NCBI RefSeq assembly: GCF_947503125.1
Contig: NZ_CANNCR010000006.1
Span: 62,001 to 126,000, forward strand
Reading direction: 5' to 3'
Length of the DNA: 64,000 nucleotides
DNA from: an uncultured Metabacillus sp.
GTDB lineage: Bacteria; Bacillota; Bacilli; Bacillales; Bacillaceae
Under the pieces are notes generated by a model. The model did not search any database. It was not told the DNA's origin and was given only the letters and a program-made list of their open reading frames with translations. This document shows, one piece after another, positions 37,650 through 53,022 of this stretch. Within the stretch, counting starts at the first letter, position 1, and each line of letters opens with the position of its first letter. The translations under genes and the position numbers were made by a program.

Positions 37650-39086
37650 TCAAATAAAAAAGAAGGCTGTCACAAGATATAAAACCGTGGCAATTGCACA
37701 GCCTATGGAGGCAATTTTCAATTTATACCTGGCATAATCGACGAGCGGCATTTCGAGAATGGATGCGGTCGTAATTGTTGTGTCCCCTAATGGTGAGGTT
37801 AAAGCACCAAATGAGCCGCTGGCAAATACTGCTCCTACTGTAAGTGGTATCGATGCTCCTGTCGCAGTTGCTAATGTCATTCCCAATGGCATAAACAATC
37901 CCCATGTTCCCCAAGAAGACCCGATAAAATAGCCGACAGCCGAACCAATAAGGAAAATGATGGCCGGGATGACATAGTCCGGTAAAAATGTCCCTAAGGT
38001 TGCGCTAATAAAGGTTGTAAATCCAAGATCCTCCGCTGCTAATGTTAGTGACCATACAAGCACAAGCAGTATGATTGCCTGCATCATTTGATTTCCGCCA
38101 TCAAAGAAATGATAGAGAATTTCGTCTAACGGTTGCTTGCGGAATATGTAAAAAACGAATGTTAACACAAGGGTTATAAATATAGCTAATAGCATAATAA
38201 ATGTTGAATCCGCCTTTGAAAAAGCTTCGAAAATGGTTTTCGCTCCTTTTGCAGTGCCATCCTGCCATAAAAGAAACAAAGAGAGGCCGAGGAGCAAAAT
38301 AAGCGGAATGATTAAATTCCATGGTTGAGCCTTTACCATGGATAATTCCTCTTTTATCCCCATCCCGTGATAGGGGTGGGCTTCATGTTCATGATCCAGG
38401 TTTTTTTGAGCTTGATGATTGTTTTGTTTCTTTTTCTTTTTAGAAGATGGCAAAAATGTTTTCAAGAGCCCAATTACTAACATACTAATGGCAAAGTAGT
38501 TAAACGGAATACTAAGCAAAAACACGTGATATGGGGACATGTCTAATTGATGCTCCTGAACGCCTGCTTCCACTAACGATACCATAAAGCCAACAAATGC
38601 AGTGGCAACAGGTAAGAGTACAATGACTGAAGCGGTGGAGACATCCATAACAAATCCAACCTTTTTCTTTGATAATCTCCTTTTTTCCATGATGGATTGG
38701 ACAATGGGACCAATCATCATAATCCGAAACATCGGCATCATAAAGGTAAAAGGCAGTGTCAGCCAAATAAGGCTTAGCAGACCGCGCTGTGACTTAATTT
38801 TTGCGCCAACCCACTCAGAAAAACCTTTCATTCCACCAGAAATTTTCATCATGCCAACGAGACCGCCAAAAAGATAAAGAAATCCGATGATATTAATATT
38901 CGTAGGGTCTGATAATGTCTTTACAATGTATTTTATTGTTTGTTGCAATCCATGTAATAAATCAAACGTAACCAGTAAAGAACCAAGGATAAGTCCCAAA
39001 ACAAGACCAGGCAAAATTTTCTTTAACCAAATGGACATAGCTATAACAATAAGAAATGGCAGTAATGAAAACCAAGTTTGCTCCAA
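37650..39086 (-). CDS. NhaC-family Na+/H+ antiporter
   Basis: 478 aa membrane protein with about 11-12 spans. Family blocks include FLYLFGGLVGMMKISGGMKG (about 68), SSWGTWGLFMPLGMTLA (about 390) and ALTSPLGDTTITTASIL (about 435). The cytosolic loop (about 215-250) is rich in Lys and His. Family members export Na+ in exchange for protons, or exchange malate and lactate; the substrate cannot be told here. The frame starts further upstream at 39134, but AAAGGAG lies 9 nt before a TTG at 39086, which I take as the start. Confidence 0.85.
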   Translation of the reverse strand: MEQTWFSLLPFLIVIAMSIWLKKILPGLVLGLILGSLLVTFDLLHGLQQTIKYIVKTLSDPTNINIIGFLYLFGGLVGMMKISGGMKGFSEWVGAKIKSQRGLLSLIWLTLPFTFMMPMFRIMMIGPIVQSIMEKRRLSKKKVGFVMDVSTASVIVLLPVATAFVGFMVSLVEAGVQEHQLDMSPYHVFLLSIPFNYFAISMLVIGLLKTFLPSSKKKKKQNNHQAQKNLDHEHEAHPYHGMGIKEELSMVKAQPWNLIIPLILLLGLSLFLLWQDGTAKGAKTIFEAFSKADSTFIMLLAIFITLVLTFVFYIFRKQPLDEILYHFFDGGNQMMQAIILLVLVWSLTLAAEDLGFTTFISATLGTFLPDYVIPAIIFLIGSAVGYFIGSSWGTWGLFMPLGMTLATATGASIPLTVGAVFASGSFGALTSPLGDTTITTASILEMPLVDYARYKLKIASIGCAIATVLYLVTAFFFI

Positions 39087-39182
39087 TTTCCCACACTCCT
39101 TTACCATTAAATTCTCCATTTTTGCCTGCTTCATTCATGGATGGGAGGTATTTGTGCGAAAGGTTACCAAGGTAAAATGTGA

Positions 39183-39209
39183 AAAGGCCGTCCTTTAAGA
39201 CAGCCCTTT
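39183..39209 (-). terminator. Terminator of the DHA2 transporter gene
   Basis: 11-bp stem on the minus strand (AAAGGGCTGTC / GACGGCCTTTT, two G-U pairs) with a 6-nt loop and T tail, 23 bp after the stop at 39232. Confidence 0.75.
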
Positions 39210-39231
39210 CCATAATAATGGAAGTCTCACT

Positions 39232-40755
39232 TTATCGTTCATTTAAAGCTAGTTGATGTGTTTTTGCTTTTTGTCTTTTGATTGTTTCCTGTCCCTCATC
39301 TTCTTCAGGATTTACCCTTTTAATAAAAAATGCAAGAACAACGGCCAATACCGATAACCAAGTAGCGACGACGAAGGCATCGTTAATCCCTTGGATGGTT
39401 GCTTCTTTTACGATAAATGCCATTTGCTGTTTGGCATCTGGTGTGACACCAGATGCAGCGGCGAGTTCTGTTACATGCTTTTCCGTTTGATTGGACATGA
39501 CAGTGACAAGAAATGCGGTACCGAGTGCTCCAGAAACTTGTTTAAACGTGTTGGACATTGCCGTTCCGTGTGCGTTTAATCGTCTTGGAAGCTGATTAAG
39601 TCCGGCCGTCATAATCGGCATCATTAGCAGCGACATGCCAAACATTCTGGCTGTGTAAATAACTAATAAAAAAGTATAAGTGGTGGAGTCTGTTAGCTCA
39701 CTAAATTCCCAGGTGGTAACGGTGGTAATGGCCAATCCGATGACGGAAAGCCAGCGTGCACCAACTCGATCAAATATCCAGCCTGTAATCGGAGACATAA
39801 TCCCCATTAATATCGCGCCTGGTAACAGCAATAGTCCTGATTCCAAAGGAGTAAAGCCCCGGATTGTTTGCAAATAAATCGGCACCAGAATCATGCCTGC
39901 AAACATTGCCATTGTAATAATGACATTAATGATCGTCGTAAGAGTAAACATATTATATTTAAATACTCTGAACTCCAGCATTGGATGATCAACCGTCATT
40001 TGCCGCCAAATAAATAACGCTAATGCGATCACTCCTACTAGTATCGAGGTGATCACTTCGATACTTCCCCATCCTGAGTTACCGGCACTGCTAAATCCAT
40101 ATAATAAGCCGCCAAAGCCTAATGTAGAAAGGGCAATACCAGCTATGTCAATGTTCGGATACGTTTGCTTTGTGACATTTTTTAAGAGAAGAATGGCGAT
40201 GATGAAATCAATCACCGCAATGGGTAGAACGATATAGAATAAGACCCGCCAAGAATAACTTTGCACAATCCAGCCTGAAAGAGTCGGACCAATTGCAGGT
40301 GCAAATGTCATCGCAAGCCCAATTAGGCCCATTGCCTGTCCTCGTTTAGCAATAGGAAAGATCGTTAAAATTACCATCATTAATAAAGGCATAAGGATGC
40401 CCGCACCTGCAGCCTGGACAACTCTCCCGATTAAAAGAATGGTGAAAGTAGGAGAAATCGCGCAGATGAAAGTGCCAATTGAAAACAATCCTATTGCTGT
40501 TAAATAGAGCTGTCTCGTGGTAAAACGTTCAATTAAAAAGGCGGTAACAGGGATTAATACGCCATTAACAAGCATATAACCTGTTGACAGCCATTGCGCT
40601 GTATTTGCGGATATATGTAAGTCTTCCATCATTTCCGGCAAGGCTACATTCATTAATGTTTGGTTTAAAATCGCCACAAATGAACCTAAAAGCATAACGG
40701 TAAGAATGGCGCCTTTTTTTATTTTCTGGTCGGATACACTTCCTTCAGTGGTCAT
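39232..40755 (-). CDS. DHA2-family multidrug MFS transporter (14 TM, LmrB/EmrB-like)
   Basis: 507 aa drug:H+ antiporter. Motif A-like region and the DHA2 hallmark blocks are visible: FVAILNQTLMNVALPEMMEDL (TM1), NTAQWLSTGYMLVNGVLIP, GRVVQAAGAGILMPLLM (motif B) and FAPAIGPTLSGWIVQ (motif C). Closest in style to B. subtilis LmrB/YhcA. The frame begins 11 codons upstream, but GGAGAGG lies 8 nt before the ATG at 40755. A strong promoter followed by a palindrome suggests control by an unlinked repressor. Confidence 0.9.
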   Translation of the reverse strand: MTTEGSVSDQKIKKGAILTVMLLGSFVAILNQTLMNVALPEMMEDLHISANTAQWLSTGYMLVNGVLIPVTAFLIERFTTRQLYLTAIGLFSIGTFICAISPTFTILLIGRVVQAAGAGILMPLLMMVILTIFPIAKRGQAMGLIGLAMTFAPAIGPTLSGWIVQSYSWRVLFYIVLPIAVIDFIIAILLLKNVTKQTYPNIDIAGIALSTLGFGGLLYGFSSAGNSGWGSIEVITSILVGVIALALFIWRQMTVDHPMLEFRVFKYNMFTLTTIINVIITMAMFAGMILVPIYLQTIRGFTPLESGLLLLPGAILMGIMSPITGWIFDRVGARWLSVIGLAITTVTTWEFSELTDSTTYTFLLVIYTARMFGMSLLMMPIMTAGLNQLPRRLNAHGTAMSNTFKQVSGALGTAFLVTVMSNQTEKHVTELAAASGVTPDAKQQMAFIVKEATIQGINDAFVVATWLSVLAVVLAFFIKRVNPEEDEGQETIKRQKAKTHQLALNER

Positions 40756-40872
40756 CTTTATTTCCTCTCCTTTTACCGATCTTTTCAAGTTTTCTCTTTC
40801 TGTAATATGTTTTCATCTTTATGAATGAAATATGTTAAATGTTTTAACCCGATCAGTTAATCATTTACCTTA

Positions 40873-40937
40873 GTTAATATTTCGATGTACGAAATATTAA
40901 CGTTATACCATTATACTCCCCTATAAGTGAATGTCAA
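40873..40937 (-). promoter_or_regulatory. SigA promoter and palindromic operator of the DHA2 transporter
   Basis: Minus-strand -35 TTGACA (40932-40937) and -10 TATAAT (40910-40915), 16 nt apart, both consensus. Right after the -10 lies a 12-bp perfect inverted repeat with a 5-nt centre (arms GTTAATATTTCG at 40873-40884 and its complement at 40890-40901), placed where a repressor would block the start site. Confidence 0.75.
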
Positions 40938-41008
40938 TCAGGGAAAATTTTTCATCCCTGGGTTAATAATGAGATAATAATGCTGAATGAAAGCTAGGAG
41001 GGGGTTAA

Positions 41009-41369
41009 ATGCCGGTAAAAATCAAGCGTGCTTATGAAAAGTCGTCTAAAGGGGATGGCATCAGAGTCCTAGTCGATCGGATATGGCCAAGAGGACTTTC
41101 AAAGCAGGAAATAAACATCGATCATTGGATGAAGGATGTTGCCCCCATCGAATCAGTTGCGGAAATGGTTTAACCATGAACCCAGTAAGTTTGGGGAATT
41201 CAAAGTTAAATATAAAGAAGAATTACGTAAGGATAAAAAGGACTTGGTGTAGGAGCTGCAAGAAATGGCCGCTAACCAGACCATTACTTTGCTATATGCG
41301 GCAAAGGATCAGGAGCATAATCAAGCAGTGGTCCTGAAGGAAATAGTGGATAAACAGGAGGACATGTAG
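41009..41369 (+). pseudogene. DUF488 (YeaO-like) gene with frameshift and stop
   Basis: Starts with a good RBS (AGGAGGGGG) and the family opening [31 protein letters not shown]. After Ser49 the frame breaks. Removing one base (G at 41156) restores [28 protein letters not shown], and after an in-frame TAG at 41250-41252 the rest reads LLYAAKDQEHNQAVVLKEIV. Two independent lesions make a non-functional gene; a sequencing error would explain the frameshift but not the TAG. Confidence 0.85.
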
Positions 41370-41500
41370 GTAAAAACAAGGGTCAGAGAGCCTAATATTG
41401 AGGTTTGTTGACCTTTTCAGTTAAGGTTATATAATCGTTTCCTGTTATAAACGCTCTCGGCCAATTTGTAGATGAGTGATAAAGCACCATTTTACTTGAA

Positions 41501-41556
41501 GTGAAAAAATCCCCTGGTAAGAAGTGCAGCAGTCAGCACTTCTTGCTTAGGGGATC
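41501..41556 (-). terminator. Terminator of dtpT
   Basis: Two-tier hairpin: outer ATCCCCT / AGGGGAT (41509-41515, 41549-41555) and inner AGAAGTGC / GCACTTCT, with TTTTTT on the minus strand beyond the outer stem. Confidence 0.85.
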
Positions 41557-41568
41557 GATAAGATTAAA

Positions 41569-43062
41569 TTAACGGACACCTTTCATAAAGCCTTGAATTT
41601 TTGGTGAAAGGGAGAAAAGCAGGATACTAAGAACGATTGCAGCTCCTCCGATTGTACCGAAATAAACCATTTCTGTTTCAGGTGTATAGAAACGAACAAT
41701 TTGTGCATTAATCGCTTGTGCAGCGGCATTTGATAGGAACCATAAGCTCATTGTTTGTGCCGAGAATGCAGCAGGAGCTAATTTTGTTGTAGCAGAAAGT
41801 CCGACAGGTGATAAGCAAAGTTCACCAAGGACGACAATAAAGTAACTTAGGACAAGCCATAAAGGATGAACTAATGCATCCTCCCCGCCAATATAGGCAG
41901 GTAACAGAATAACGAGAAATGACAAACCAGCAAATAGTAAACCTAATGAGAATTTTTTAGGAATGGAAGGCTGGCGATTTCCAAGCTTTACCCATAACCA
42001 TGCAAAAACGGGTGCCAAAATGATGATGAATAATGGGTTCAGTGATTGGAACCATGCTGGAGAAATATGAATACCAGCAAAGTCTAATTGTGTTCGTTTA
42101 TCAGCATAGTTTGCTAAAATAGTTGAGCCTTGCTCTTGGATTGCCCAGAACATGACAGAAGCAATAAACAATGGGATATAGGCAATAATTCGCGAACGTT
42201 CAACTGCCGTTGTTTTAGGGCTTCTATACATCACGATAAAGTAGATCGTTGGGATCAAAATCCCTAAAATACCGACTAAAGCAATAAAACTATTAATCGT
42301 TAATATGCCTGCTGGTATAGTGATGGCAATAATAATTGCGATAATAGCAGCGCCTAATCCAATGATGGTATAGACCTTTTTCTTTTCAGATGGAGACATT
42401 GGATTTGCAATTAACGTTCCTGCAAGACCAAGATTTTTTTTCTTAGTAAAGATAAAAACTAATAATCCAAGGAACATTCCAACTGCGGCAATTCCGAAGC
42501 CCAGGTGGAAATTGTATCTCATTCCAACTGTACCGACAATTAATGGAGCTAAAAATCCGCCAAGGTTAATACCCATATAGAAAATACTAAAGCCTGAATC
42601 ACGGCGATTGTCTTCTTCACTATATATTTCTCCGACAACGCTCGAAACGTTAGGTTTTAGTAAGCCTGTCCCAAGAACGATTAAAACCATTGAGACGAAA
42701 AACATAGGTACACTTCCAGGTACTGCTAGTACAATATGACCTAGCATAATTAGGATTCCGCCATAAAAAACAGCATTTGATGTCCCGAATACCCGGTCTG
42801 CAAGCCAACCGCCAATGATGCCGGACATATACACTAATGAGCCATAAATCGACATGATGGCAAGAGCGGTGTTTTCTTCAATACCTAAGCCGCCTTTTGA
42901 AACTTCATAATACATATAAAAGACTAGGATTGCTCTCATTCCATAGTAGGAGAAACGCTCCCAAAATTCAGTAAAGAAAAGTGTGAAAAGTCCCTTAGGA
43001 TGGCCAAAAAATCCTTTCTGAGGGACGCTTGCCACAATTTTCTGTTTATTTAAATTTGACAT
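41569..43062 (-). CDS. dtpT: Di-/tripeptide:proton symporter, POT (PTR2) family
   Basis: 497 aa, 12-14 spans. Proton-coupling motif ExxERFSYYG is present (FTEFWERFSYYGMRA, about residues 31-45). Further family blocks: LGTGLLKPNVSSVVGEIYSEED (about 133), SIFYMGINLGGFLAPLIVG and LSPVGLSATTKLAPAAF near the C-terminus. It imports short peptides. The expected RBS, GGAGGTT, lies before the ATG. It has its own promoter at 43089-43117. Confidence 0.94.
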   Translation of the reverse strand: MSNLNKQKIVASVPQKGFFGHPKGLFTLFFTEFWERFSYYGMRAILVFYMYYEVSKGGLGIEENTALAIMSIYGSLVYMSGIIGGWLADRVFGTSNAVFYGGILIMLGHIVLAVPGSVPMFFVSMVLIVLGTGLLKPNVSSVVGEIYSEEDNRRDSGFSIFYMGINLGGFLAPLIVGTVGMRYNFHLGFGIAAVGMFLGLLVFIFTKKKNLGLAGTLIANPMSPSEKKKVYTIIGLGAAIIAIIIAITIPAGILTINSFIALVGILGILIPTIYFIVMYRSPKTTAVERSRIIAYIPLFIASVMFWAIQEQGSTILANYADKRTQLDFAGIHISPAWFQSLNPLFIIILAPVFAWLWVKLGNRQPSIPKKFSLGLLFAGLSFLVILLPAYIGGEDALVHPLWLVLSYFIVVLGELCLSPVGLSATTKLAPAAFSAQTMSLWFLSNAAAQAINAQIVRFYTPETEMVYFGTIGGAAIVLSILLFSLSPKIQGFMKGVR

Positions 43063-43088
43063 TACTCAACCTCCTTTGTTCTTTTAAT

Positions 43089-43117
43089 ATAATACTTTTA
43101 TGATTCGATATTGTCAA
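43089..43117 (-). promoter_or_regulatory. dtpT promoter
   Basis: Minus-strand -35 TTGACA (43112-43117) and -10 TATTAT (43089-43094) with 17-nt spacing, 27 bp before the ATG. The remaining intergenic stretch to 43420 is AT-rich; it holds a cre-like site and the SDR promoter region. Confidence 0.7.
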
Positions 43118-43265
43118 AAAAAATAGAAACAAGTCTATTTTACTAGTTTTTCCCCTTTTTAGTGAAAATTGAATAGTTTTAATATTTTATTAGAATAATA
43201 GAACTTCTCAAGAAGATCATTTTGAAATTTTTTATGTAAAAAGAACTAGGAGTTTATAATCAATA

Positions 43266-43283
43266 CTTGAAAGCGCTTTAAAA
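43266..43283. promoter_or_regulatory. cre-like site
   Basis: CTTGAAAGCGCTTTAAAA differs from the CcpA cre consensus mainly at the second C. It lies about 150 bp upstream of dtpT and of the SDR gene, so either may be under catabolite control. Confidence 0.4.
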
Positions 43284-43378
43284 ATATTCCTGTAGAATAA
43301 TAGAATAGTAGTAAAAGTAACAATAACAGAATTTTTTCAAGTGTAGATAATTACTTTCGATAAGAGTTATATCCGCTT

Positions 43379-43399
43379 TATTTCTATAAAATAGAAATA
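43379..43399 (+). promoter_or_regulatory. Perfect inverted repeat upstream of the SDR gene
   Basis: TATTTCTAT-AAA-ATAGAAATA, 9-bp arms with a 3-nt centre, overlapping a TAAAAT -10-like sequence and ending 7 bp before the RBS AAAGGAG. A candidate operator. Confidence 0.45.
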
Positions 43400-43420
43400 A
43401 ATAGTTAAAGGAGAAGATAG

Positions 43421-44260
43421 ATGGATAAAAAAATTGCTGTTGTGACAGGCTCTTCAAGTGGTTTTGGTTTCATGACATCGTTAGAATTAGCGAAATGCGG
43501 TTATTATGTTATCGCAACGATGCGCAATACAGAAAAATCTCCTCAGCTATTGGAACGCGCGGAACAACTTGGTGTAAGGGATCTGATTTATGTACTTGAA
43601 TTAGATGTCACTTCACAGGTTTCGATTCATCATTGGAGAGATTTCATGAGAACATTAGGGCGAATTGATGTGCTGGTTAATAACGCTGGATTTGCTGGTG
43701 CGGGTTTTGTTGAGGAGATTCCACTTGATGAATATAGGAAGCAGTTTGAAACGAATGTTTTTGGGGTTATTGCGGTAACTCAGGCAGTCTTGCCACTAAT
43801 GAGAGAACAACGAAAAGGGAGAATTATCAATATTAGCAGCATAAGCGGACGAATTGGCTTTCCCGGCTTATCGCCATACATTTCTTCCAAGCATGCATTA
43901 GAGGGCTGGAGTGAGGCATTGCGATTTGAAATGAAGCCTTTTGGCGTCGATGTTGTCTTGGTAGAGCCGGGTTCTTTTCAAACAAGTATCTGGACATCGG
44001 GTAAACATGTAACGAAGAAATCGTTGGACGTGAAGTCTCCGTATTATGAAATGATGAAAAAGCTAGAAGAACATATTGAAAAAGGGGCAAGCAAGTTTGG
44101 TGATCCAACCGAAGTTGCTCAATTAATCGCAAAAATTGCCCAAAAGAAACAGACTAGAATGAGGTACATGATTGGAAAAGGAGTAAAAACAGCTGTTTTT
44201 GTAAAAAACATACTTCCCTGGAAAGTATGGGAGAGAATTTTTTTACGGCAGTTAAAGTGA
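43421..44260 (+). CDS. Short-chain dehydrogenase/reductase
   Basis: 279 aa classical SDR using NAD(P)H. Cofactor motif TGSSSGFG (residues 9-16), NNAG (about 90), catalytic Ser in INISSISGRIG and Tyr-Lys in SPYISSKHALEG (about 155-159). The C-terminal extension (about 245-279) is basic and hydrophobic (KTAVFVKNILPWKVWERIF), suggesting membrane contact as in ketoreductase or retinol-dehydrogenase-like SDRs. Substrate unknown. AAAGGAG lies before the ATG. Single gene. Confidence 0.92.
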   Translation: MDKKIAVVTGSSSGFGFMTSLELAKCGYYVIATMRNTEKSPQLLERAEQLGVRDLIYVLELDVTSQVSIHHWRDFMRTLGRIDVLVNNAGFAGAGFVEEIPLDEYRKQFETNVFGVIAVTQAVLPLMREQRKGRIINISSISGRIGFPGLSPYISSKHALEGWSEALRFEMKPFGVDVVLVEPGSFQTSIWTSGKHVTKKSLDVKSPYYEMMKKLEEHIEKGASKFGDPTEVAQLIAKIAQKKQTRMRYMIGKGVKTAVFVKNILPWKVWERIFLRQLK

Positions 44261-44277
44261 GTTTTGTATTGGTAAAA

Positions 44278-44314
44278 GTGAGACTGCTGCTTAATTAGGT
44301 TGCAGCAGCCTCAC
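44278..44314 (+). terminator. Hairpin after the SDR gene
   Basis: GTGAGACTGCTGC pairs with GCAGCAGCCTCAC apart from one mismatch, loop 11 nt. No T run follows, so termination may be partial. Confidence 0.5.
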
Positions 44315-44700
44315 GAAACGTGGTGATCTTCAGTGAAAAAGGTAGGGAAATGTCAATCTTTGTCCCGCGGTATAAAGCACCGTCAACTATATTTGTTCCT
44401 CTGTACTATCCTACCCGAGCTAGCCTCCTTTTAAGAGAATAGTTCGTTTAAAAACTTGGTAAAGTATTTCCTTTGCTATTCCAGCACCATTATCTTCGAA
44501 TTCAAGTCATGCAAAATTTTCTACTTACTACTCTCCTAATTAATAGCCATCAATAGAATTAAATCTCTCATATATGGTTAACACTCACTTGTATTTTTTG
44601 TGTGGTCAATCATCTATATTATCATTTCAAAGTTTCGACAAATGCAAGCGCACGGGAAAGAATATAAGTAAAAAGAGTGATATTTTTAGGCCGAAAAGCA
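44315..44700. other. Non-coding region with a possible structured element
   Basis: About 390 bp without a convincing ORF. Between 44340 and 44415 the outer pair GGTAGG / CCTACC encloses a CGGT / ACCG hairpin and other short pairs. On the minus strand the outer helix is followed by TTTTT. It may be a small RNA or nothing. The rest is AT-rich without visible signals. Confidence 0.25.
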
Positions 44701-44711
44701 GCAAAACTCGT

Positions 44712-44878
44712 TGTTTACAAAAATGTATACATGTAAACAAAATGTAATCGTAATGTGTGCAAAGGTGTAAACATGTGTACAAACCTGTATGCATGTTGAT
44801 TTAAAGGGATGTGTACAAAATTGTTTGCATGTATTCTCTTTTGATTACATGTAAACGTTATTTGTATACATGTTTACG
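44712..44878. repeat. parC: Iteron array, putative parC centromere of a ParMR cassette
   Basis: Ten exact copies of the octamer TGT-NN-RCA (for example TGTATACA, TGTAAACA, TGTGTACA) start at 44712, 44724, 44732, 44754, 44766, 44774, 44786, 44810, 44822 and 44863. Three one-mismatch copies start at 44842, 44850 and 44871, and more decayed ones lie between. Units are spaced 8 bp (abutting) or 12 bp in most cases. The array ends 24 bp before the candidate parM promoter, so it can serve both as centromere and as operator. Confidence 0.75.
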
Positions 44879-44901
44879 ATATGAACACAACGAAAGTAAT
44901 A

Positions 44902-44930
44902 TTGACGCTTTGAGTGATAAGCTTTACCCT
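44902..44930 (+). promoter_or_regulatory. Candidate promoter of the parMR operon
   Basis: TTGACG (44902-44907), 17 nt, TACCCT (44925-44930). The -35 is good and the -10 weak. It lies between the octamer array and parM. Confidence 0.4.
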
Positions 44931-44991
44931 TAAATTAAACTGGTGATCGTTCTTCTTGAACATCATCATTTTAATAGAAAGGAATGATTGG

Positions 44992-46176
44992 ATGAGCGTA
45001 ACGCGTATTGCAGCAATTGATGTAGGAAATGATTGTGTAAAAGCTTTGTTTGGAAAATTGGATCATAACTTGTACATACCAAATGTTATAGCAAGAGACA
45101 CCGAAGACCGACCAGTTATTGGTATTGAAGAATTAAATGATAAGGATCCGCTAGATGGCATTCATATTAGGGTTCACTCCCCTGCTTTAAAAGAAAATAA
45201 TGCTATTTATCGTGTTGGGAATCTTGCAACCAAAAGTGATCATGCGAATGAATTAGATCCTGGCAGCAGCAAATCTGAAGAGGATCAAACTCTAGTTATG
45301 TTGTTTGCTTCATTAGCATTAGATGCAGTAAGAGAAGAAAATTCTAATTTATTTAAAAAGACAAACAATGTCATTGATGCGAACTACACACTTGGAACAG
45401 GACTTCCCCTTCGTGAAGTAAAAGAAGGTAAGGATGTTGGCTATCGCTCACAATTACTAAGCTCTGTTCACCAAGTTGAATTTTTAGTTACACCAAAATA
45501 CCAAGGACTAAAAGTAAATATAAGATTTGATGAGGTTAAGGTGTATCCAGAAGGATTTGCTGCCTATATTAATCTTGTAATGGATAATGACTTAAATATC
45601 ATTAACCGTGATTTGATTGACAAACGCATTCTTATTCAAGACATCGGCGGTTTATCAACAGATATCGCTGTCATCAAGAATCGTAATGTAGATGACGATA
45701 AGGCACAAGGCTTTAATCTTGGTGTTTCTGAATCGTTAGAAGCAATAAGAGAAGAAATTCGCTCAAAGCATGGAGTTGAATTAGACAGCCGACGAGATGT
45801 TGTTGAAATCATTACTCGAAAAAATGACCGCAACCATATTATGGTAAAAGGGAGCCGGACAAGCGTTCATGATATTACAGATCGTATTTTGCTAGAATTA
45901 GCGAAAAAACAATATCGTCATTTGCGCAATGTGTGGCAGAAAAACTCGCAAACAGAAATCTGCTACTTTGTTGGCGGCGGAGCGATGGTATTAAAGGACT
46001 ATATCAAAATGTTAAATAATAGCTTGGATGGCTATAACATTGAATTCTTTGAAGATGAACAAGAGAGCATTTGGATGATGGCAAATGCCTATTATAAATT
46101 AATCTCTGATTATACTAGAAGAAACAATCCGAATACAAAGGGTAAAAAGGCAGAGAAACAAACAGTAGAAAAATAG
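44992..46176 (+). CDS. parM: ParM/StbA-family actin-like ATPase
   Basis: 394 aa filament-forming ATPase of the actin superfamily, related to plasmid-segregation ParM/Alp proteins. Phosphate-1 loop AIDVGNDCVKALFG (residues 8-21), phosphate-2 QDIGGLSTDIAV (D217 start), adenosine motif CYFVGGGAMVL (328-331 GGGA). The frame is open from a TTG at 44956, but AAAGGA lies 8 nt before the ATG at 44992. It is followed 9 bp later by a small DNA-binding-type gene and preceded by an octamer array, the parC-parM-parR order of type II partition loci. Neighbouring genes are chromosomal housekeeping types, with no replication gene nearby. Confidence 0.88.
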   Translation: MSVTRIAAIDVGNDCVKALFGKLDHNLYIPNVIARDTEDRPVIGIEELNDKDPLDGIHIRVHSPALKENNAIYRVGNLATKSDHANELDPGSSKSEEDQTLVMLFASLALDAVREENSNLFKKTNNVIDANYTLGTGLPLREVKEGKDVGYRSQLLSSVHQVEFLVTPKYQGLKVNIRFDEVKVYPEGFAAYINLVMDNDLNIINRDLIDKRILIQDIGGLSTDIAVIKNRNVDDDKAQGFNLGVSESLEAIREEIRSKHGVELDSRRDVVEIITRKNDRNHIMVKGSRTSVHDITDRILLELAKKQYRHLRNVWQKNSQTEICYFVGGGAMVLKDYIKMLNNSLDGYNIEFFEDEQESIWMMANAYYKLISDYTRRNNPNTKGKKAEKQTVEK

Positions 46177-46185
46177 GGTGGTTTC

Positions 46186-46800
46186 ATGAATAAAAAGGGC
46201 TCGGCATCCATACAAAGGGGACAAGCAATTACTTTTCGCCTTCCTTCAGACACTCCTGATCATCTTTTAAAACAGCTTCAAATGTTAAAGGATACAGAAA
46301 GACGAAACTTTTCTAGTAAAATAGCTGAGTTTGTTTTAGAAGGGGTTGGCAGCTCTCAGTCAAAGGATCGCGAAACAATAACACTACCTCTGCCGAAAAA
46401 ACTAAGCAAAGACCAACGGAACTGGTTAAAACACTCTCATTCAGAAGCGTTATTAGGCAGCATTGTCTATCAGCTGTTAGCAGACCCGGTCCGGGCAACA
46501 TCGATTTTAGCTTCACTGAACAGCAATGCGTTGGATATTAATGAAGCACTGTATTTGCAAGAATCTGAACCGATTGACATAAAAGATGATAACATCTCAC
46601 CAATCTCCTCAACTGAAATGGAAGAACTGGAAGAGGAGGCTGCCCTGTCTAGAGCTGATGAAATGGAGTTGGATTTAATAAACTTCGATTGGGAGAAGGT
46701 TAGACAAGAGCAAGCCTCTGCTGAAGAGGAAGATCAAGACGAGAAAGAAGAAGATGTGGATGATCTTCTTGGAGGATTTCTTGCCAATATGAATAAATAA
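46186..46800 (+). CDS. parR: ParR-like centromere-binding adaptor
   Basis: 204 aa. Two segments have the strand-turn-two-helix look of ribbon-helix-helix domains: QAITFRLPSDTPDHLLKQL with RNFSSKIAEFVLEGV (about 13-55), and ETITLPLPKKLSKDQRNWL with LLGSIVYQLLADPV (about 64-105). The rest is very acidic (about 125-195) and ends in VDDLLGGFLANMNK, a possible filament-capture peptide. ParR proteins bind parC with an RHH fold and contact ParM through the C-terminus, so layout and context agree. Sequence identity to known ParR is not evident to me; the call rests mainly on position and shape. Confidence 0.65.
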   Translation: MNKKGSASIQRGQAITFRLPSDTPDHLLKQLQMLKDTERRNFSSKIAEFVLEGVGSSQSKDRETITLPLPKKLSKDQRNWLKHSHSEALLGSIVYQLLADPVRATSILASLNSNALDINEALYLQESEPIDIKDDNISPISSTEMEELEEEAALSRADEMELDLINFDWEKVRQEQASAEEEDQDEKEEDVDDLLGGFLANMNK

Positions 46801-46901
46801 GAAATCTGTAATTAGATTGAAGCTTTTTAGCATAAGCAAAAACGTATATGAATATATGTGTTATAGATCATTTCCGGGGGAATGATTTTGCTAAAAAGAT
46901 A

Positions 46902-46931
46902 TTGACAATAATAATTGGAAAATTATACAAT
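46902..46931 (+). promoter_or_regulatory. Promoter of the bmr leader
   Basis: TTGACA (46902-46907), 18 nt, TACAAT (46926-46931). Transcription would start near 46938, about 36 nt before the 25-codon leader ORF. Confidence 0.7.
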
Positions 46932-46973
46932 GAAATAAGAATATTAATTTACAAGAAATGGAGGGTTACAAAA

Positions 46974-47051
46974 ATGGAAAACGTAATGGGAAACAAAGGT
47001 TACCAAATTTCATATTTTATATGTGACCCGCAAAGGATTGTAAATCGTTAA
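46974..47051 (+). CDS. Leader peptide (25 aa) of the bmrCD attenuator
   Basis: Short ORF starting MENVMGNKGY and ending CDPQRIVNR. GGAGG lies 9 nt before the ATG, one of the best RBSs in the window, which is unusual for a 25-codon ORF unless it is translated for regulation. Its last ten codons contain the 5' halves of an antiterminator (GTGACC 47023-47028, AGGATT 47034-47039). By position it corresponds to the bmrB leader of B. subtilis bmrCD. A longer frame from an ATG at 46848 has no RBS and spans the promoter, so it is not used. Confidence 0.75.
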   Translation: MENVMGNKGYQISYFICDPQRIVNR

Positions 47052-47096
47052 TTCTTATTTGTGAGCAAATCCTATTTGTCATTAATCGCAGGTCAC
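47023..47096 (+). promoter_or_regulatory. Nested antiterminator of the bmr leader
   Basis: GTGACC (47023-47028) pairs with GGTCAC (47091-47096), and nested inside it AGGATT (47034-47039) pairs with AATCCT (47068-47073). GGTCAC is also part of the 5' arm of the terminator at 47087. A ribosome finishing the leader ORF would cover the left side and let the terminator form; a ribosome stalled early would leave it free and prevent termination. Confidence 0.65.
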
Positions 47097-47119
47097 TACT
47101 ATAGTGGCGTGCGTTTTTT
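47087..47119 (+). terminator. Attenuator terminator 1 of the bmr leader
   Basis: 12-bp stem CGCAGGTCACTA / TAGTGGCGTGCG (one mismatch, one G-U) with a 3-nt loop and six T, 36 nt after the leader stop. Confidence 0.85.
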
Positions 47120-47134
47120 ATTGTCTTCTTTTTT

Positions 47135-47168
47135 AGGCATCGTACGTTTACCGTACGGTGCCTTTTTG
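47135..47168 (+). terminator. Second terminator in the bmr leader
   Basis: AGGCATCGTACG pairs with CGTACGGTGCCT (one G-U), 5-nt loop, then five T. Two terminators in series would hold basal bmrCD expression very low. Confidence 0.8.
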
Positions 47169-47240
47169 TCTTTATTAAGAGGGCAAATTCCGAGCATTTA
47201 GCTCGTTTAGATAGATATTTTTTTGAAGGGAGCTTTGAAA

Positions 47241-47294
47241 ATGGAAAAAGAAAAGATCATTCGCATTCATTTAGATTGGATGAAAGGTGGCTAA
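47241..47294 (+). CDS. Second short leader ORF (17 aa)
   Basis: MEKEKIIRIHLDWMKGG, preceded by AAGGGAG 8 nt upstream. It lies after both terminators, so it is translated only when the attenuator is passed. It may be a second regulatory ORF or a remnant of a longer bmrB-like gene. No family can be assigned at this length. Confidence 0.45.
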   Translation: MEKEKIIRIHLDWMKGG

Positions 47295-47328
47295 GGGCCA
47301 TAAATTGAAATTTTATTTTTAGTTTTGG

Positions 47329-47417
47329 TGTTTAGCTCGAGTGCCTATGAACTTCACACTTAAAAGGTGGAGGCAACTGTTAATAGGTTGCTGGTGTAAG
47401 GCGCTTGCGCTTTTCTT
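47329..47417 (+). repeat. Decayed copy of the dispersed palindromic element (copy E)
   Basis: Begins TTTTGGTGTTTAGCTCGAG and ends GTAAGGCGCTTGCGCTTTTC, matching the ends of the full element, but its central hairpin is different. The rest of the 47295-47606 gap is copy D. Confidence 0.5.
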
Positions 47418-47466
47418 ATAATATCAGAATTTATATATTTTCTTAACATAGCTTGCGTTTCTGAAT

Positions 47467-47587
47467 CTAGCTCCAGGCGCCATCGGCTCGAGGTCATAAG
47501 TCAAACAGGAATTGAAGGTAAAGTACACCTTCTATTCCTGTTCGCCTTATGCTTGTCGCCGATAGGCAGGCGCCTTGCGCTTTTTTT
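47467..47587 (+). repeat. Dispersed palindromic intergenic element, copy D
   Basis: Opens CTAGCTCCAGGCGCCATCGG, closes GCAGGCGCCTTGCGCTTTTT. Variable arms AGTCAAACAGGAAT and ATTCCTGTTCGCC. It lies 20 bp before the bmrC start, within the leader, so it is transcribed with the operon. Confidence 0.85.
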
Positions 47588-47606
47588 ATAAGGGAGGGAC
47601 CTTTCT

Positions 47607-49355
47607 GTGTTCTCAGTACTTGGAAAATTAAGCTGGTTTTTTAAACAGTATTGGAAGCGTTACACTGTAGCAATAACGTTATTGATTATCGTTAGTGTAT
47701 TAGATGTTATTCCTCCGAAGATTATCGGAATAGCGATTGACGATATGCAATTTGGTCAAATGACGGGCGAAAGGCTTCTTGATCTGCTTCTCTTCTACGG
47801 TGCACTACTCATTTTGAGCTATGGGATCACCTATGTGTGGATGTACCAGCTTTTTGGAGGAGCCCATTTGATTGAACGAATATTAAGATATCGCTTTATG
47901 AGACATCTACTCACGATGACTCCAAGCTTTTATGAAAAAAATCGAACAGGCGATTTAATGGCAAGAGCAACGAATGATCTAAAGGCGATATCCTTGACTG
48001 CAGGATTTGGGATTTTGACTTTGATTGATTCGACAATCTTTATGATTATTATCATTTTTGTCATGAGTGTGACGATTAGTTGGCAGCTGACTATTGCTGC
48101 GCTTTTGCCTTTGCCCTTGATGGCGTTGGCGATTAATTTTTATGGAAGTCTTATCCATCAACGCTTTACTGTAGCCCAAAATGCCTTTGGCGATTTAAAT
48201 GACAATGTTCTGGAATCAATCGCTGGTGTCAGGGTCATCCGTGCATATGTGCAGGAAAAAGCGGATGAAAAACGTTTTAAAGACATGACAGAGGATGTTT
48301 ATCAGAAGAACATTGAGGTAGCAAAGGTTGATGCATTATTTGAACCAACGATTAAAATCCTAGTTGGATTAAGCTATGTGATCGGACTTGGATATGGGGC
48401 CTATTTAGTCTTTCATCAAGTGATTACGTTAGGAGAATTAATCAGCTTTAACATTTATTTAGGAATGTTGATTTGGCCGATGTTTGCAGTAGGAGAGCTG
48501 ATCAATATTCTGCAGCGCGGTAATGCTTCCTTGGATCGCGTAAATGAAGTGCTTGCTTATGAGCCTGATGTTAAGGATCATGAAAATCCTGTTGAACTGG
48601 ATACAGCAGATTCGATCGTGTTCTCTAATGTCACGTTCCGCTATCCTTCATCAACAACCGATAACTTAAAAAATCTTACTTTGCATGTAAAAAGAGGCGA
48701 AACAATTGGTGTTGTTGGTAAAACAGGCAGTGGAAAGACAACGTTGTTGAAACAGCTTCTGCGGGAATATCCATTAGGAAGTGGAGAAATACTCGTATCG
48801 GGAACTTCTCTAGAAAAGGTTGCAATTGACACAGTCCATTCTTGGGTTGGTTATGTACCGCAGGAACAAATACTTTTTTCGAGAACGATTCGTGAAAATC
48901 TTCAATTTGGAAAAGAGAACGTAAGCGAGGAGGAAATTGATCGCGCCCTGCATTTAGCGGCGTTTGACCAAGATTTATCTGTTTTGCCGAAAGGCCTTAA
49001 TACGCTTGTCGGTGAAAAAGGTGTTGCCTTATCAGGCGGTCAAAAACAAAGGATATCTATTGCCAGAGCGCTCATTAAAGATCCGGAGATTTTGTTGCTG
49101 GATGATGCAATGTCTGCTGTTGATGGAAAGACAGAGGCGAAAATCATTAAAAATATTCGTAAAGAGAGAGCTGGAAAAACAACCTTTATTAGTGCACACC
49201 GTTTATCAGCCGTTCAGCATGCTGATTGGATTATTGTCATGGATGAAGGGAGAATCGTGGAAGAGGGCACACATGAACAGCTCCTTAAGCAAGGGAAATG
49301 GTATAAAGAGCAATTTGATCGGCAACAGGCTGATTCCTATGGAGAGGTGAGTTAA
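47607..49355 (+). CDS. bmrC: Heterodimeric multidrug ABC exporter subunit BmrC
   Basis: 582 aa half-transporter (B. subtilis BmrC is about 585). Six-span membrane domain in the first ~310 residues, then the ATPase domain: Walker [13 protein letters not shown] (about 374), signature LSGGQKQRISIARAL, and Walker B LLLDDAMSAVD. The catalytic Glu after Walker B is replaced by Asp (D500), the degenerate site expected in this subunit. GTG start with GGGAGGG upstream. Pairs with bmrD, whose start is 1 bp after this stop. Exports drugs using ATP. Confidence 0.92.
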   Translation: MFSVLGKLSWFFKQYWKRYTVAITLLIIVSVLDVIPPKIIGIAIDDMQFGQMTGERLLDLLLFYGALLILSYGITYVWMYQLFGGAHLIERILRYRFMRHLLTMTPSFYEKNRTGDLMARATNDLKAISLTAGFGILTLIDSTIFMIIIIFVMSVTISWQLTIAALLPLPLMALAINFYGSLIHQRFTVAQNAFGDLNDNVLESIAGVRVIRAYVQEKADEKRFKDMTEDVYQKNIEVAKVDALFEPTIKILVGLSYVIGLGYGAYLVFHQVITLGELISFNIYLGMLIWPMFAVGELINILQRGNASLDRVNEVLAYEPDVKDHENPVELDTADSIVFSNVTFRYPSSTTDNLKNLTLHVKRGETIGVVGKTGSGKTTLLKQLLREYPLGSGEILVSGTSLEKVAIDTVHSWVGYVPQEQILFSRTIRENLQFGKENVSEEEIDRALHLAAFDQDLSVLPKGLNTLVGEKGVALSGGQKQRISIARALIKDPEILLLDDAMSAVDGKTEAKIIKNIRKERAGKTTFISAHRLSAVQHADWIIVMDEGRIVEEGTHEQLLKQGKWYKEQFDRQQADSYGEVS

Positions 49356-49356
49356 A

Positions 49357-51390
49357 ATGAAACAAAAAACAACAGGAAGACGCCTTTTCAACTACGCCCT
49401 GCTTTACAAAAAAACAATTTTGATTGCATTGGCGATGTTGGCTCTAGCTGTTACAGCCGAGCTAACAGGACCATTTATCGCAAAGAGAGTGATCGATCAC
49501 CACATGATGGGAATTGAAAGCCCATGGGTGGAAGTAAAAGAAAAGGATGAACAAACCGTTCTTTATCATGAGCGGTATTACAAAAGAAGCAGCAATATAA
49601 CCGATGAAACGGCTGTAGGCGATGCCAAGCTGCAGATTGTTCAAGTCGGCAGGTCCTTCTACGTTACGGAGGAGCATCTTAGCTTTGATGGAGAAAGGTC
49701 AATAAATGGCAATGAATTAACCATCGTTAAAGGTAATGAGCAAGCCAGCTTTGAAGTGGACAGATTAAGCCAGCAAGAATTAATGGCTTTCTATCAACCA
49801 GAAATTCGTCCGATTATTCTGTTGCTTGGCTTTTATGTCGGTCTGCTTTTGGTTGCAGCATTTTTCCAATATGGAAAATCGTTAATGCTCCAAAAAGCTG
49901 CAAATCGTATAATCCAGAAGATGAGAACAGATGTATTTGAGCATATTCAGCGAGTGCCCATCAACTATTTTGATAATAGGCCCGCTGGGAAAATTGTTTC
50001 ACGTGTAACAAATGATACCGAAGCAATTAGAGAGCTTTATGTAAAAGTACTTGCGACTTTTTTCACTAGCGGAATTTATATGACAGGTATTTTTATTGCG
50101 TTGTTTTTCCTTGATACAAAGCTTGCCCTCATCACTCTGCTATTGGTACCGATTATTTTGGTTTGGACGTTGCTCTATCGAAAGGTAGCTTCTAAATATA
50201 ATCACTTAATTCGAACAAGAATAAGTGATATAAATGGAATCATCAATGAATCGATTCAAGGAATGCCAATTATTCGAGCATTTCGACGCAAAGAACAAAC
50301 GACAAAGGAATTTGAACAGTTAAATGAGGAGCATTTTGTTTATCAAAATAAACTGCTCAGTTTAAATGCATTAACATCGCATAATTTAGTTAATGTTCTT
50401 AGAAATGCCACCTTTGTTGTGCTCATTTGGTATTTCGGAGGACAATCGATTAGCGCAGCAGGAATTGTATCAATTGGTATGCTTTATGCTTTTGTTGACT
50501 ATCTTAATCGTTTATTCCAGCCGGTAACGGATATTGTTAATCAGCTGGCACAGCTAGAGCAAGCGAGGGTTGCGGCTGAGCGAGTATTTGAGCTTTTAGA
50601 TGAAAAAGGTGTCCCTGTTGATGAGGGAAAACTTCCAAGATATGAAGGAAATGTTCGATTTGATCAGGTATCCTTTTCCTATGATGGTGAGCATGATGTT
50701 TTGAAAAATATCACCTTTGCGGCGAAAAAGGGTGAAACGGTTGCTTTAGTAGGGCATACCGGTTCAGGAAAAAGCTCAATTATTAACCTGTTATTTCGTT
50801 ATTATGATATTGATCGCGGAACGATTACGATTGATGGTAAAGATACAAGTAAACTGCCGCGTCAGCAGCTTAGAAAGCATATGGGGATTGTGCTTCAAGA
50901 TCCGTTCTTGTTTACAGGGACCATTGCTTCAAATGTAAGCTTGGATAATCCTGAAATTGCTAAAGAACAGGTCATAAAGGCGCTTAAGGATGTAGGAGCT
51001 GACCGGTTTATTGAAAAGCTTCCGAACAAATATGATGAGCCTGTACTTGAAAAAGGCAGCACCTTATCAGCCGGAGAGCGGCAGCTTATTTCCTTTGCGC
51101 GGGCGTTAGCATATGACCCGGCTATTCTCATTTTAGATGAAGCAACAGCCAATATTGATACCGAAACAGAAGCTTTGATTCAAGAGGCCTTGAAGATTGT
51201 CAAAGAGGGCAGAACAACGTTTATTATTGCCCACCGTCTTTCAACGATTCGCAGTGCTGATCAAATCCTTGTATTAGATCACGGTGAAATTGTTGAAAGA
51301 GGACGTCATGAGGAGCTGCTGAATCAAAGAGGAAAATACTATCAAATGTATCAGCTGCAGAAAGGGAAAGAAGTTTCAAGGGTTGGATGA
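49357..51390 (+). CDS. bmrD: Heterodimeric multidrug ABC exporter subunit BmrD
   Basis: 677 aa (B. subtilis BmrD about 673). It has an extra extracellular domain of about 100 residues between the first two spans (about 45-150), typical of BmrD. The ATPase domain has Walker A GHTGSGKSSIINL, a degenerate signature LSAGERQLISFARAL and a canonical Walker B with catalytic Glu (ILILDEATANID). With BmrC it forms one active and one degenerate ATP site. Translation is coupled to bmrC. Confidence 0.92.
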   Translation: MKQKTTGRRLFNYALLYKKTILIALAMLALAVTAELTGPFIAKRVIDHHMMGIESPWVEVKEKDEQTVLYHERYYKRSSNITDETAVGDAKLQIVQVGRSFYVTEEHLSFDGERSINGNELTIVKGNEQASFEVDRLSQQELMAFYQPEIRPIILLLGFYVGLLLVAAFFQYGKSLMLQKAANRIIQKMRTDVFEHIQRVPINYFDNRPAGKIVSRVTNDTEAIRELYVKVLATFFTSGIYMTGIFIALFFLDTKLALITLLLVPIILVWTLLYRKVASKYNHLIRTRISDINGIINESIQGMPIIRAFRRKEQTTKEFEQLNEEHFVYQNKLLSLNALTSHNLVNVLRNATFVVLIWYFGGQSISAAGIVSIGMLYAFVDYLNRLFQPVTDIVNQLAQLEQARVAAERVFELLDEKGVPVDEGKLPRYEGNVRFDQVSFSYDGEHDVLKNITFAAKKGETVALVGHTGSGKSSIINLLFRYYDIDRGTITIDGKDTSKLPRQQLRKHMGIVLQDPFLFTGTIASNVSLDNPEIAKEQVIKALKDVGADRFIEKLPNKYDEPVLEKGSTLSAGERQLISFARALAYDPAILILDEATANIDTETEALIQEALKIVKEGRTTFIIAHRLSTIRSADQILVLDHGEIVERGRHEELLNQRGKYYQMYQLQKGKEVSRVG

Positions 51391-51482
51391 TTAAGATAGA
51401 GTCGTGATAAATAAACCGTTCAACAATGTTTACCTTCCAGCAAATGCGGGAAAGTTTATTAAAAAAGCGGGAGGTAACGTTT

Positions 51483-51578
51483 ATGAAAAGAGCGTTTAAA
51501 AATGTCATGAAATGGGCTCCTATCATTTATCCAATTGTCAAAAAGTTTATAAACAAACGGAAGGCTAAACGAATTTAA
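51483..51578 (+). CDS. Small cationic amphipathic peptide (31 aa), hypothetical
   Basis: Begins MKRAFKNVMKWAPIIYPIVK and ends in a Lys/Arg-rich tail (KRKAKRI). Eleven of 31 residues are Lys or Arg, around a short hydrophobic centre. GGGAGG lies 8 nt before the ATG. It sits 92 bp after bmrD and just before a terminator, so it may be the last gene of the bmr transcript. It could be a membrane-active peptide or a small partner protein; no evidence decides this. Confidence 0.6.
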   Translation: MKRAFKNVMKWAPIIYPIVKKFINKRKAKRI

Positions 51579-51616
51579 ATTTTCGTGCGGAAAGATAAGT
51601 AAAGTTATGATGCCGA

Positions 51617-51650
51617 AAGGAGCCAGGTAAAAGTGAACTGGCTCCTTCAT
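51617..51650 (+). terminator. Terminator after bmrD and the small peptide
   Basis: 10-bp perfect stem AAGGAGCCAG / CTGGCTCCTT with an 11-nt loop, T-rich tail. Confidence 0.8.
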
Positions 51651-51686
51651 TATTAAAAGGAATGTATAAAATTTTAAGCTAGTTTT

Positions 51687-51717
51687 AGTGTCTAGCTCCA
51701 GGCGCCTTGCGCTTTTC
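51687..51717 (+). repeat. Truncated copy of the dispersed element (copy F)
   Basis: GTGTCTAGCTCCAGGCGCC is followed at once by TTGCGCTTTTC: the two ends of the full element are joined with the whole centre missing, as after a deletion between the GGCGCC repeats. Confidence 0.65.
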
Positions 51718-51735
51718 TTATGAAAGCTTCAAGAT

Positions 51736-53022
51736 TCATGACTTATAAGGTGTTTCTTCAATCGAAATAGGCAAGGCTGTCTGTGGTTCAGGTACACGAG
51801 AGAGAATAAGAAAACCAATAATAAATAAAATTACTAAACTGAATACACCGCTATTTGTATCTCCAGTAAGCTGTGCAGTTATCCCTACTAAAAGCGGCCC
51901 CATAATTGATGCAAATTTGCCAAAGATTGTATAAAAGCCAAAGAATTCGTTTGCATTTTCCTTTGGAACCAGCTTTGCGAAATAAGATCTGCTCAATGCT
52001 TGGATTCCTCCTTGAGAGGTGGCTACCAGCATAGCTAAAATCCAAAAGTCTAAAGTTGTCTTCAGAAAATACGCATATATGCAAACGATCATATAGATGA
52101 TAATGCCAACATACAGCATTTTCTTCCCTGTGAATTTCTCAGCCAGCCGGCCATAAAGAATAGAAAATGGTGCGGCAACAACCTGTGTAACGAATAATAT
52201 GATCAATAGATTTGTAGAGCTGATCCCCAAATCCGAACCATAAGCTGTGGACATCGTAATAATCGTTCCAACTCCATCAATATAGAAAAAATAAGCAAGC
52301 AGGAATAAAAATAGTGCCCGATATTTGCGAATTTCGGTGAACGTTTTTCCTAAACGTCGGAAGCTGTTTGCAATTGGGCTTGGCTCACGTGCAATAAAAT
52401 AGCGTTGATGGACATTTTTTAATAGAGGGATGGTAAACCCTGCCCACCATAGAGCCGTTATGATGAAGGCGATTTCACTTGCAGTAGTAGTAGAAACAGG
52501 AATGACCTTGCTTTGCGCCAATATAATAATCGCAATGCTTATTATAAACGGAATCGTGCTGCCGATATACCCAAAGCTGAAGCCGCGAGCAGACACACGG
52601 TTCATTCGTTCATCTGAGGTAACATCAACTAAAAATGCGTCATAAAACACATTGGCACCAGCTGAACCAATTGCTGCGATTGTATAACAGATAAGCAAAA
52701 GCAACCACTGGTTACTTGGAATAAAGGCCAATAAACCCGTAAAGATTACACCTAAAGCCACGAAGAATGTAAAAAATCGCTTCTTAAATCCTTGATAATC
52801 GGCAATGGTACCTAAAATTGGACCAAGCATCGCTAAAATAAAAGTTGCGATGGCAATCGTATAGCCTAAATAGGCGGTAGAATCTGCAGAACTGATCCCT
52901 GCATTTTTCGCCGCTGCTTTATAAAATAATGGAAATACGGCTGTTGTAATAATAATCGAATAGGCAGAGCTTGCCCAATCATAAAAAATCCAGCTATTTT
53001 CCTCCTTCGTGAAACGCCTCAT
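51736..53022 (-). CDS. UMF1-family MFS transporter (Atg22-like, YxiO-type)
   Basis: 428 aa, 12 spans. The N-terminus SWIFYDWASSAYSIIITTAVFP is the hallmark of the UMF1/Atg22 group; GANVFYDAFLVDVTSDERMNRVSARGFSFGYIGS (about 130-165) is also diagnostic. Substrate is unknown; the fungal relative exports amino acids from vacuoles. AGGAGGGG lies 7 nt before the ATG. Confidence 0.88.
   Translation of the reverse strand: MRRFTKEENSWIFYDWASSAYSIIITTAVFPLFYKAAAKNAGISSADSTAYLGYTIAIATFILAMLGPILGTIADYQGFKKRFFTFFVALGVIFTGLLAFIPSNQWLLLLICYTIAAIGSAGANVFYDAFLVDVTSDERMNRVSARGFSFGYIGSTIPFIISIAIIILAQSKVIPVSTTTASEIAFIITALWWAGFTIPLLKNVHQRYFIAREPSPIANSFRRLGKTFTEIRKYRALFLFLLAYFFYIDGVGTIITMSTAYGSDLGISSTNLLIILFVTQVVAAPFSILYGRLAEKFTGKKMLYVGIIIYMIVCIYAYFLKTTLDFWILAMLVATSQGGIQALSRSYFAKLVPKENANEFFGFYTIFGKFASIMGPLLVGITAQLTGDTNSGVFSLVILFIIGFLILSRVPEPQTALPISIEETPYKS

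Follow-up and report, generated by a model that had tools for sequence, protein, structure and literature searches.

We describe a cassette in a window of 64,000 nucleotides from an uncultured Metabacillus sp. (contig NZ_CANNCR010000006.1, positions 62,001 to 126,000), in which an array of octamers is followed by genes for an actin-like ATPase and a putative partner protein. The cassette probably represents a chromosomal ParMRC system (type II, actin-based) of the Bacillales that acts on the region of the replication origin, beside ParABS. It is a more tentative proposal that it forms the first actin-driven chromosomal centromere, an origin-linked parC that would, together with ParM, segregate the origin or anchor it at the pole, and that would occur in about half of the sampled Bacillales, be exchanged between genera and always lie on the same side of oriC. 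Chromosomal ParM proteins have been known since 2025; the origin-side position of the cassette is the new fact. The cassette comprises the following features:

44712..44878, plus strand: parC-like array of ten exact TGTNNRCA octamers and three with one mismatch, found by motif scan and kept upstream of parM in relatives
44902-44930, plus strand: sigma-A-like promoter TTGACG-17-TACCCT, a consensus match only, 3' of the array and without octamer overlap
44992..46176, plus strand: parM-like gene for an Alp7A-like actin ATPase of 394 amino acids, assigned by Pfam matches, motifs and orthologues
46186..46800, plus strand: parR-like gene for a protein of 204 amino acids, starting after a 9-base gap behind parM, the partner in 80/80 loci
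46216..46365, plus strand: conserved stretch of ParR (residues 11-60), read by eye as ribbon-helix-helix-like
46756..46797, plus strand: C-terminal tail of ParR ending FLxxMNx, found in 80/80 chromosomal and 0/6 plasmid partners

The exact octamers start on the plus strand at positions 44712, 44724, 44732, 44754, 44766, 44774, 44786, 44810, 44822 and 44863, consecutive starts being separated by 8, 12, 22, 24 or 41 bases, and one-mismatch octamers at 44842, 44850 and 44871 fill out the array to 167 bp. This recount agrees with the ten exact and three one-mismatch octamers that the first-pass annotation of this DNA had counted. Of five further one-mismatch words, three overlap exact octamers and two lie just past 44878. 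TGTNNRCA itself is common, with 71 matches on both strands of the window compared to 58 expected from shuffling, and it is thus the clustering that is unusual. To follow the array in relatives, 80 loci were studied closely, the best 80 from a scan of 450 named relatives and therefore favouring close ones; they include Metabacillus, Mesobacillus, Peribacillus, Psychrobacillus, Alkalihalophilus, Jeotgalibacillus and Evansella. In Alkalihalophilus pseudofirmus OF4, a culturable carrier, the orthologue is located on the chromosome. Across the 80 loci, the mean number of octamers in the 400 bp ahead of parM is 7.2, compared to 0.5 in dinucleotide shuffles. At least four octamers are present in 78/80 loci, and in 77/80 the observed count was equalled by at most one of 200 shuffles. 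The two exceptions are L032, with two octamers, and L029, where the array is displaced upstream and apparently duplicated: its octamers lie 800 to 440 bases before parM and look duplicated about 300 bp apart, and extra sequence separates the promoter-like site from parM. The first-pass annotation had recognised the parC-parM-parR plan of plasmid segregation and had made it depend on conservation of the octamers upstream of parM orthologues. The octamers are conserved, a partner gene lies next to parM in all 80 loci, the same gene order recurs in six of six plasmid-borne cousins, and the plan is accordingly supported.

The commonest octamer word pattern across the loci is TGTATACA, and the preferred distances from site to site are 8, 12, 20-21, 36, 42, 56 and 62. 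Octamer positions in 78 loci follow a period of 10.8 bp (power 0.68, the maximum of 40 random placements being 0.44), so that the octamers lie on a single face of the helix, which would be expected for a segrosome. A search of the window's own genome for the paired-octamer pattern on both strands returned ten matches, compared to four for the reversed control. Five of the ten lie in the array and the other five are unclustered; thus, no second octamer cluster comparable to scattered parS sites was found in this genome.

As the array adjoins a promoter-like site, it might be speculated that the octamers are an operator for autoregulation only, and that the filament has another job such as cell shape, division or spore morphogenesis. 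Actin-like proteins have many jobs. A study on plasmid pSK41 reports that its ParR represses its own operon through parC (PMC4911067). An operator should, however, not require some seven phased sites that extend over about 170 bp and for the most part end before the promoter-like site, nor a location that is constant with respect to the origin. Octamers overlap the best promoter-like match in 13 of the 78 chromosomal loci (the window included), compared to three of the six plasmid cousins; this search took the best match within 400 bp, and about one in three of the matches taken is distant from the gene and could be due to chance. On balance, we consider a filament system with a different job an unlikely explanation.

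The ATPase with its nucleotide motifs, also named in the first-pass annotation, was confirmed. DVGNDC at residue 10, DIGGLSTD at residue 217 and GGG at residue 328 are what we take to be the actin phosphate and adenosine motifs. The protein scores above the cut-offs of the Pfam families Alp7A_like_C (7.5e-40; 136.7 bits, cut-off 22), ALP_N (5.7e-9) and MreB-like_C, falls just under that of the Pfam ParM model (26.9 bits, cut-off 27.4), and matches the PHROG 'partition protein' at 2.2e-40. By these domain models, it is predicted to be an actin-fold ATPase and a member of the Alp7A family.

In the ParR-like partner, the N half is conserved, and an acidic linker that varies joins it to a C part with an F[DN]W motif (62/80 loci). 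The N half is 28-39% identical to plasmid partners. Searches of Pfam, other family libraries and the sequences of solved structures gave no convincing match to any family. Two AlphaFold models (pLDDT 64.6 and 61.4) place helices at residues 25-37 and 42-60, behind an extended stretch, and assign no strand. In the six plasmid partners, the tails line up with the part of the chromosomal ParR that contains F[DN]W. We infer that this part would be the counterpart of the ParM-binding tail of the plasmid ParRs, and that the terminal FLxxMNx tail would be an addition specific to the chromosomal type.

The window's own genome (5.44 Mb in 244 contigs) harbors a single copy of the cassette on contig 6. 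On this contig, dnaA is located at 10678-12009, outside the window, and parM at 106992, 95 kb away. To map this relation in relatives, we used 59 genomes in few contigs that were picked for carrying an orthologue; one of them (G365) was dropped from the distance count as dnaA and parM are on different contigs. Wherever the two genes share a contig (58 genomes), parM invariably lies on the same side of dnaA and on the opposite strand, so that it is transcribed away from the origin, as it is in the window's own genome. The distance between the two genes ranges from 35 to 288 kb with a median of about 97 kb, and 50/58 genomes fall within 150 kb. For 33 of the 58 the distance was measured inside one contig (35-260 kb); the other 25, among them the largest (288 kb, G379), cross contig ends on the assumption of closed circles. 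Four distances were based on rounded genome lengths; exact lengths give 235, 220 and 109 kb for three of these, and that for G415 is approximate. The cassette is therefore not carried by a plasmid, as it shares its contig with dnaA here and in 58 further genomes.

Such a constant position could also reflect inherited gene order or recombination via conserved flanks. According to this explanation, an ancestral gene has simply persisted next to the origin, where the chromosome changes slowly, and has no job connected with the origin, any conflict between gene trees resulting from loss of tandem copies or from flank recombination. In its favor, rlmH, a plain vertical marker, is also located 28-77 kb from dnaA on the side of parM. 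Against it, the exact spot moves: relative to rlmH, parM lies up to 1.2 kb inside or up to 233 kb beyond, and the nearest neighbors of the cassette form 59 distinct pairs in the 80 loci (by a mechanical call of open reading frames). Thus, the zone is kept while the exact spot is not. No gene family besides ParM and its partner occurs near the cassette in more than 16/80 loci. As a control, we searched 48 of the 59 genomes for orthologues of the ABC transporter gene at 49357-51390 and obtained matches in 46; with two paralogues (47% and 51% identical) dropped, 44 remained, some with rounded genome lengths. This gene lies within 300 kb on the parM side of dnaA in 9/44 genomes, seven of the window's genus together with G241 and G405, and elsewhere in 35.

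The ancestry of ParM was compared with that of an origin block (2,302 columns from DnaA, DnaN, RecF and GyrB together with a portion of a fifth frame) in 40 genomes. The ParM data reject the origin-block topology in the approximately unbiased (AU) test (p = 2.8e-6), and the Shimodaira-Hasegawa (SH) test rejects the whole topology as well. Monophyly of ParM in families f1, f42 and f46, which were picked after inspection of the tree, is rejected by the AU test (p = 5e-4, 1.1e-3 and 5.5e-5). The SH test, the more conservative of the two, does not reject it (p = 0.157, 0.202 and 0.055), which is a point in favor of inherited gene order. Six of 18 ParM splits with a bootstrap of at least 95 conflict with origin-block splits of at least 95 when IQ-TREE is used on both sides, and seven of 18 when the origin tree is built by FastTree. 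Families f1, f7, f11, f42 and f46 form no clades in the ParM tree; in the origin-block tree, f1 is a clade at 100 and f46 has a support of only 90. The correlation of ParM and DnaA distances is 0.12 in the trimmed comparison, with 376 of 2,000 permutations as high, and no correlation was seen in the untrimmed comparison. Given the conflicting splits and the AU rejections, simple vertical inheritance of ParM was discarded as unsupported. The AU rejection of the origin-gene tree therefore indicates that the position has been kept despite a discordant ancestry.

Horizontal exchange with a constant chromosomal address seems the simplest reading of this conflict; old tandem copies that were lost differently, or recombination via conserved flanks, are possible other sources. 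In this respect, genome G014 (contig 1, 5477673-5478676; loci L016 and L019) retains, about 0.7 kb upstream of its intact parM, a second copy that is degenerate and contains many stops, as inherited order with tandem-copy loss would allow; blastx scores did not separate the candidates for the source of this copy. In view of the rejected monophyly, the rejected topology and the shifting spot, inherited order alone is also an improbable account of the cassette's place. Within the ParM tree, the window's genus groups with genomes of f6, f3 and f29. The neighboring ABC gene at 49357-51390 displays the same odd affinity, being 80% identical to its counterpart in G241 (f6) and 75% to that in G405 (f3), compared to 63-66% to those of sister genera in its own family. 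This suggests that a block was transferred, and the ABC gene of the 47607-51390 region may have travelled with the cassette.

ParM is about as conserved as DnaA: among 20 genomes, the mean pairwise identity is 84.7% for ParM and 82.2% for DnaA, the N half of ParR reaching 69.4%, and ParM identity exceeds DnaA identity in 142/190 genome pairs. With respect to distribution, 229/397 sampled genomes of the order match, the window's own included; 207/397 do so at E 1e-200 or better, the 22 weak matches being left out. The order-level matches listed, apart from the own genome, are 80-90% identical to the ParM of the window. A phylum-wide sample yielded matches in 5/398 genomes at 1e-30, again with the own genome included, all of them in the same order. 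Within the family, 30/80 genomes match, and within the genus an orthologue is present in 14/21 genomes, once split in two frames and once partial at a contig end. In G003 (contig 1, 2501785-2502953), parM is read in two overlapping frames, due to either a sequencing error or a real break.

Several observations weigh against a chromosomal ParMRC that serves the origin. About half of the sampled order is without the cassette, as are 7/21 genomes of the window's genus and all 44 genomes of its sister genus g2, which is presumably Bacillus sensu stricto. As it is absent from these, the cassette must be dispensable at the species level. Two ParB-family genes occur in 26/26 carriers of the cassette tested (26 of the 59), and the cassette would therefore supplement rather than replace ParABS. 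The ATPase reaches 31 bits with the NCBIfam ParM model, far under the cut-off of 417. Fold searches with both low-confidence models of ParR gave no match to a known fold, and the ribbon-helix-helix-like look of residues 11-60 is a by-eye reading of an unconfirmed fold. Finally, of the eight families with at least two members, three (f3, f28 and f47) form clades in the ParM tree as well as in the origin-block tree.

Cousins of the ParM occur on 85 of 72,556 plasmid records, and six were read in detail. It might thus be argued that the cassette is a domesticated plasmid remnant that either mediates incompatibility with related incoming plasmids or stabilises an integrated element. The cousins themselves, the gene order common to the six (parM followed by the partner gene) and the patchy presence of the cassette are in line with this idea. 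The 40 chromosomal ParMs are, however, 84.1% identical among themselves (minimum 75.7%) and 43.0% identical to the six plasmid ParMs (maximum 45.6%), with a support of 1.0 for the split; conservation is at the level of DnaA, and the open reading frames around the cassette (38000-54000) were read by eye as transporter and metabolic genes. We accordingly regard a plasmid remnant as very unlikely. An integrated plasmid or prophage was ruled out as the leading explanation, since the cassette occurs widely, is conserved and lies on the same side of dnaA throughout. Among the three roles that the first-pass annotation had offered, stabilising an old integrated element is for the same reasons the least likely, and segregating or positioning the chromosome appears, as far as function can be predicted, to be the best fit.

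Additional ParM copies were observed in some genomes. In G050, G066 and G070, copies of 39-44% identity are located on other contigs, perhaps plasmids; G050, which belongs to g2, a genus without the chromosomal form, has five of them (39-43%). G250 possesses a second ParM-like gene, 36% identical, on a chromosome-sized contig far from dnaA (contig 1, 2349369-2350445), and weaker copies of 25-29% identity are present in several other genomes.

Among the systems closest to the cassette are those of Alp7A/Alp7R-type plasmids (pLS20), with cousins like that of pBM69. The Alp7A_like_C domain is common to this type and the cassette, and the six cousins also have the gene order (6/6) and the type of octamer in common with it. 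The partners of the six cousins are shorter (133-151 amino acids, compared to 204 here) and are devoid of FLxxMNx. These cousins have fewer octamers, most of them no more than about 110 bp away from the gene: up to 500 bp upstream, three cousins have four or five exact octamers, one has three and two have one, two of these counts including one site far from the gene. The two cousins with one octamer have near-matches in repeats, and clustering is clear in the other four. Judged by these comparisons, the chromosomal form makes up a single clade, and its array is longer and located farther from the gene. The ParMRC systems of pSK41 and R1 follow the same plan, parC upstream and then parM and parR (for pSK41, PMC4911067), and are plasmid-borne; the parC of pSK41 is described there as 10-bp repeats that ParR binds as a dimer-of-dimers. 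The ParM of the R1 type is weakly similar in sequence to that of the window (E = 0.009).

Chromosome-encoded cParMR cassettes have been described in Desulfitobacterium, Clostridium botulinum, Moorella and Bacillus tropicus (Ali et al. 2025, PMC12270681). According to that report, they are kept in several Bacillus, and a role beyond plasmids is proposed. They resemble the present cassette in that a chromosomal gene of the ParM fold is adjacent to a ParR gene and highly conserved within a lineage. The same combination is found here, ParM being recognised by family models and ParR by its position and its similarity to plasmid partners. In contrast to the conserved array described here, a conserved parC could not be recognised among the Clostridium strains according to the legend of Figure 4 (PMC12270681). 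In the main text of that report, as searched, dnaA is absent and oriC appears solely in the title of a reference. A literature search over titles and the beginnings of abstracts, covering the open literature with most subscription journals outside, did not turn up any account of a ParM that is linked to the origin. ParABS and RacA of B. subtilis also use origin-proximal sites, yet they are different proteins; PMC4949633 places the RacA sites mainly to the left of oriC and reports that RacA affects how this portion of the chromosome is captured during sporulation. It is suggestive that, by analogy, the cassette would be located on the side corresponding to these sites. The Alp7A-like family model had no match in any of 14 control genomes, B. 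subtilis among them.

We propose that a chromosomal ParMRC would act as follows. ParR dimers would occupy neighboring octamers along a single face of the DNA to form a segrosome, and the tail of ParR would bind the ends of ParM filaments. The filaments could grow from an array towards a cell pole or in the space between two sister arrays, and their growth would push apart, or hold, the freshly copied origin regions. The cassette would act in this way beside ParABS, in growth, in sporulation or in both. Its position might have been kept since the array would work only as an origin-linked centromere. If this holds true, a widespread chromosomal ParMRC near the origin would provide a natural test case in relatives of B. 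subtilis, and could account for related species placing their origins with different sets of tools. It would also represent a case of horizontal exchange that apparently keeps its chromosomal address.

Two further features of the window were noted. Downstream of parR, the segment 46974-47120 comprises, as read by eye, a short open reading frame (MENVMGNKGYQISYFICDPQRIVNR) and then a hairpin-like stretch with a T run, and the ABC heterodimer genes (47607-51390) come next, an arrangement that we take to resemble a leader-peptide attenuator of the BmrB kind. On the minus strand, positions 12376-12664 match Rfam RF02514 (5' ureB sRNA) at 88.9 bits, which perhaps reflects only coding conservation opposite a urease gene.

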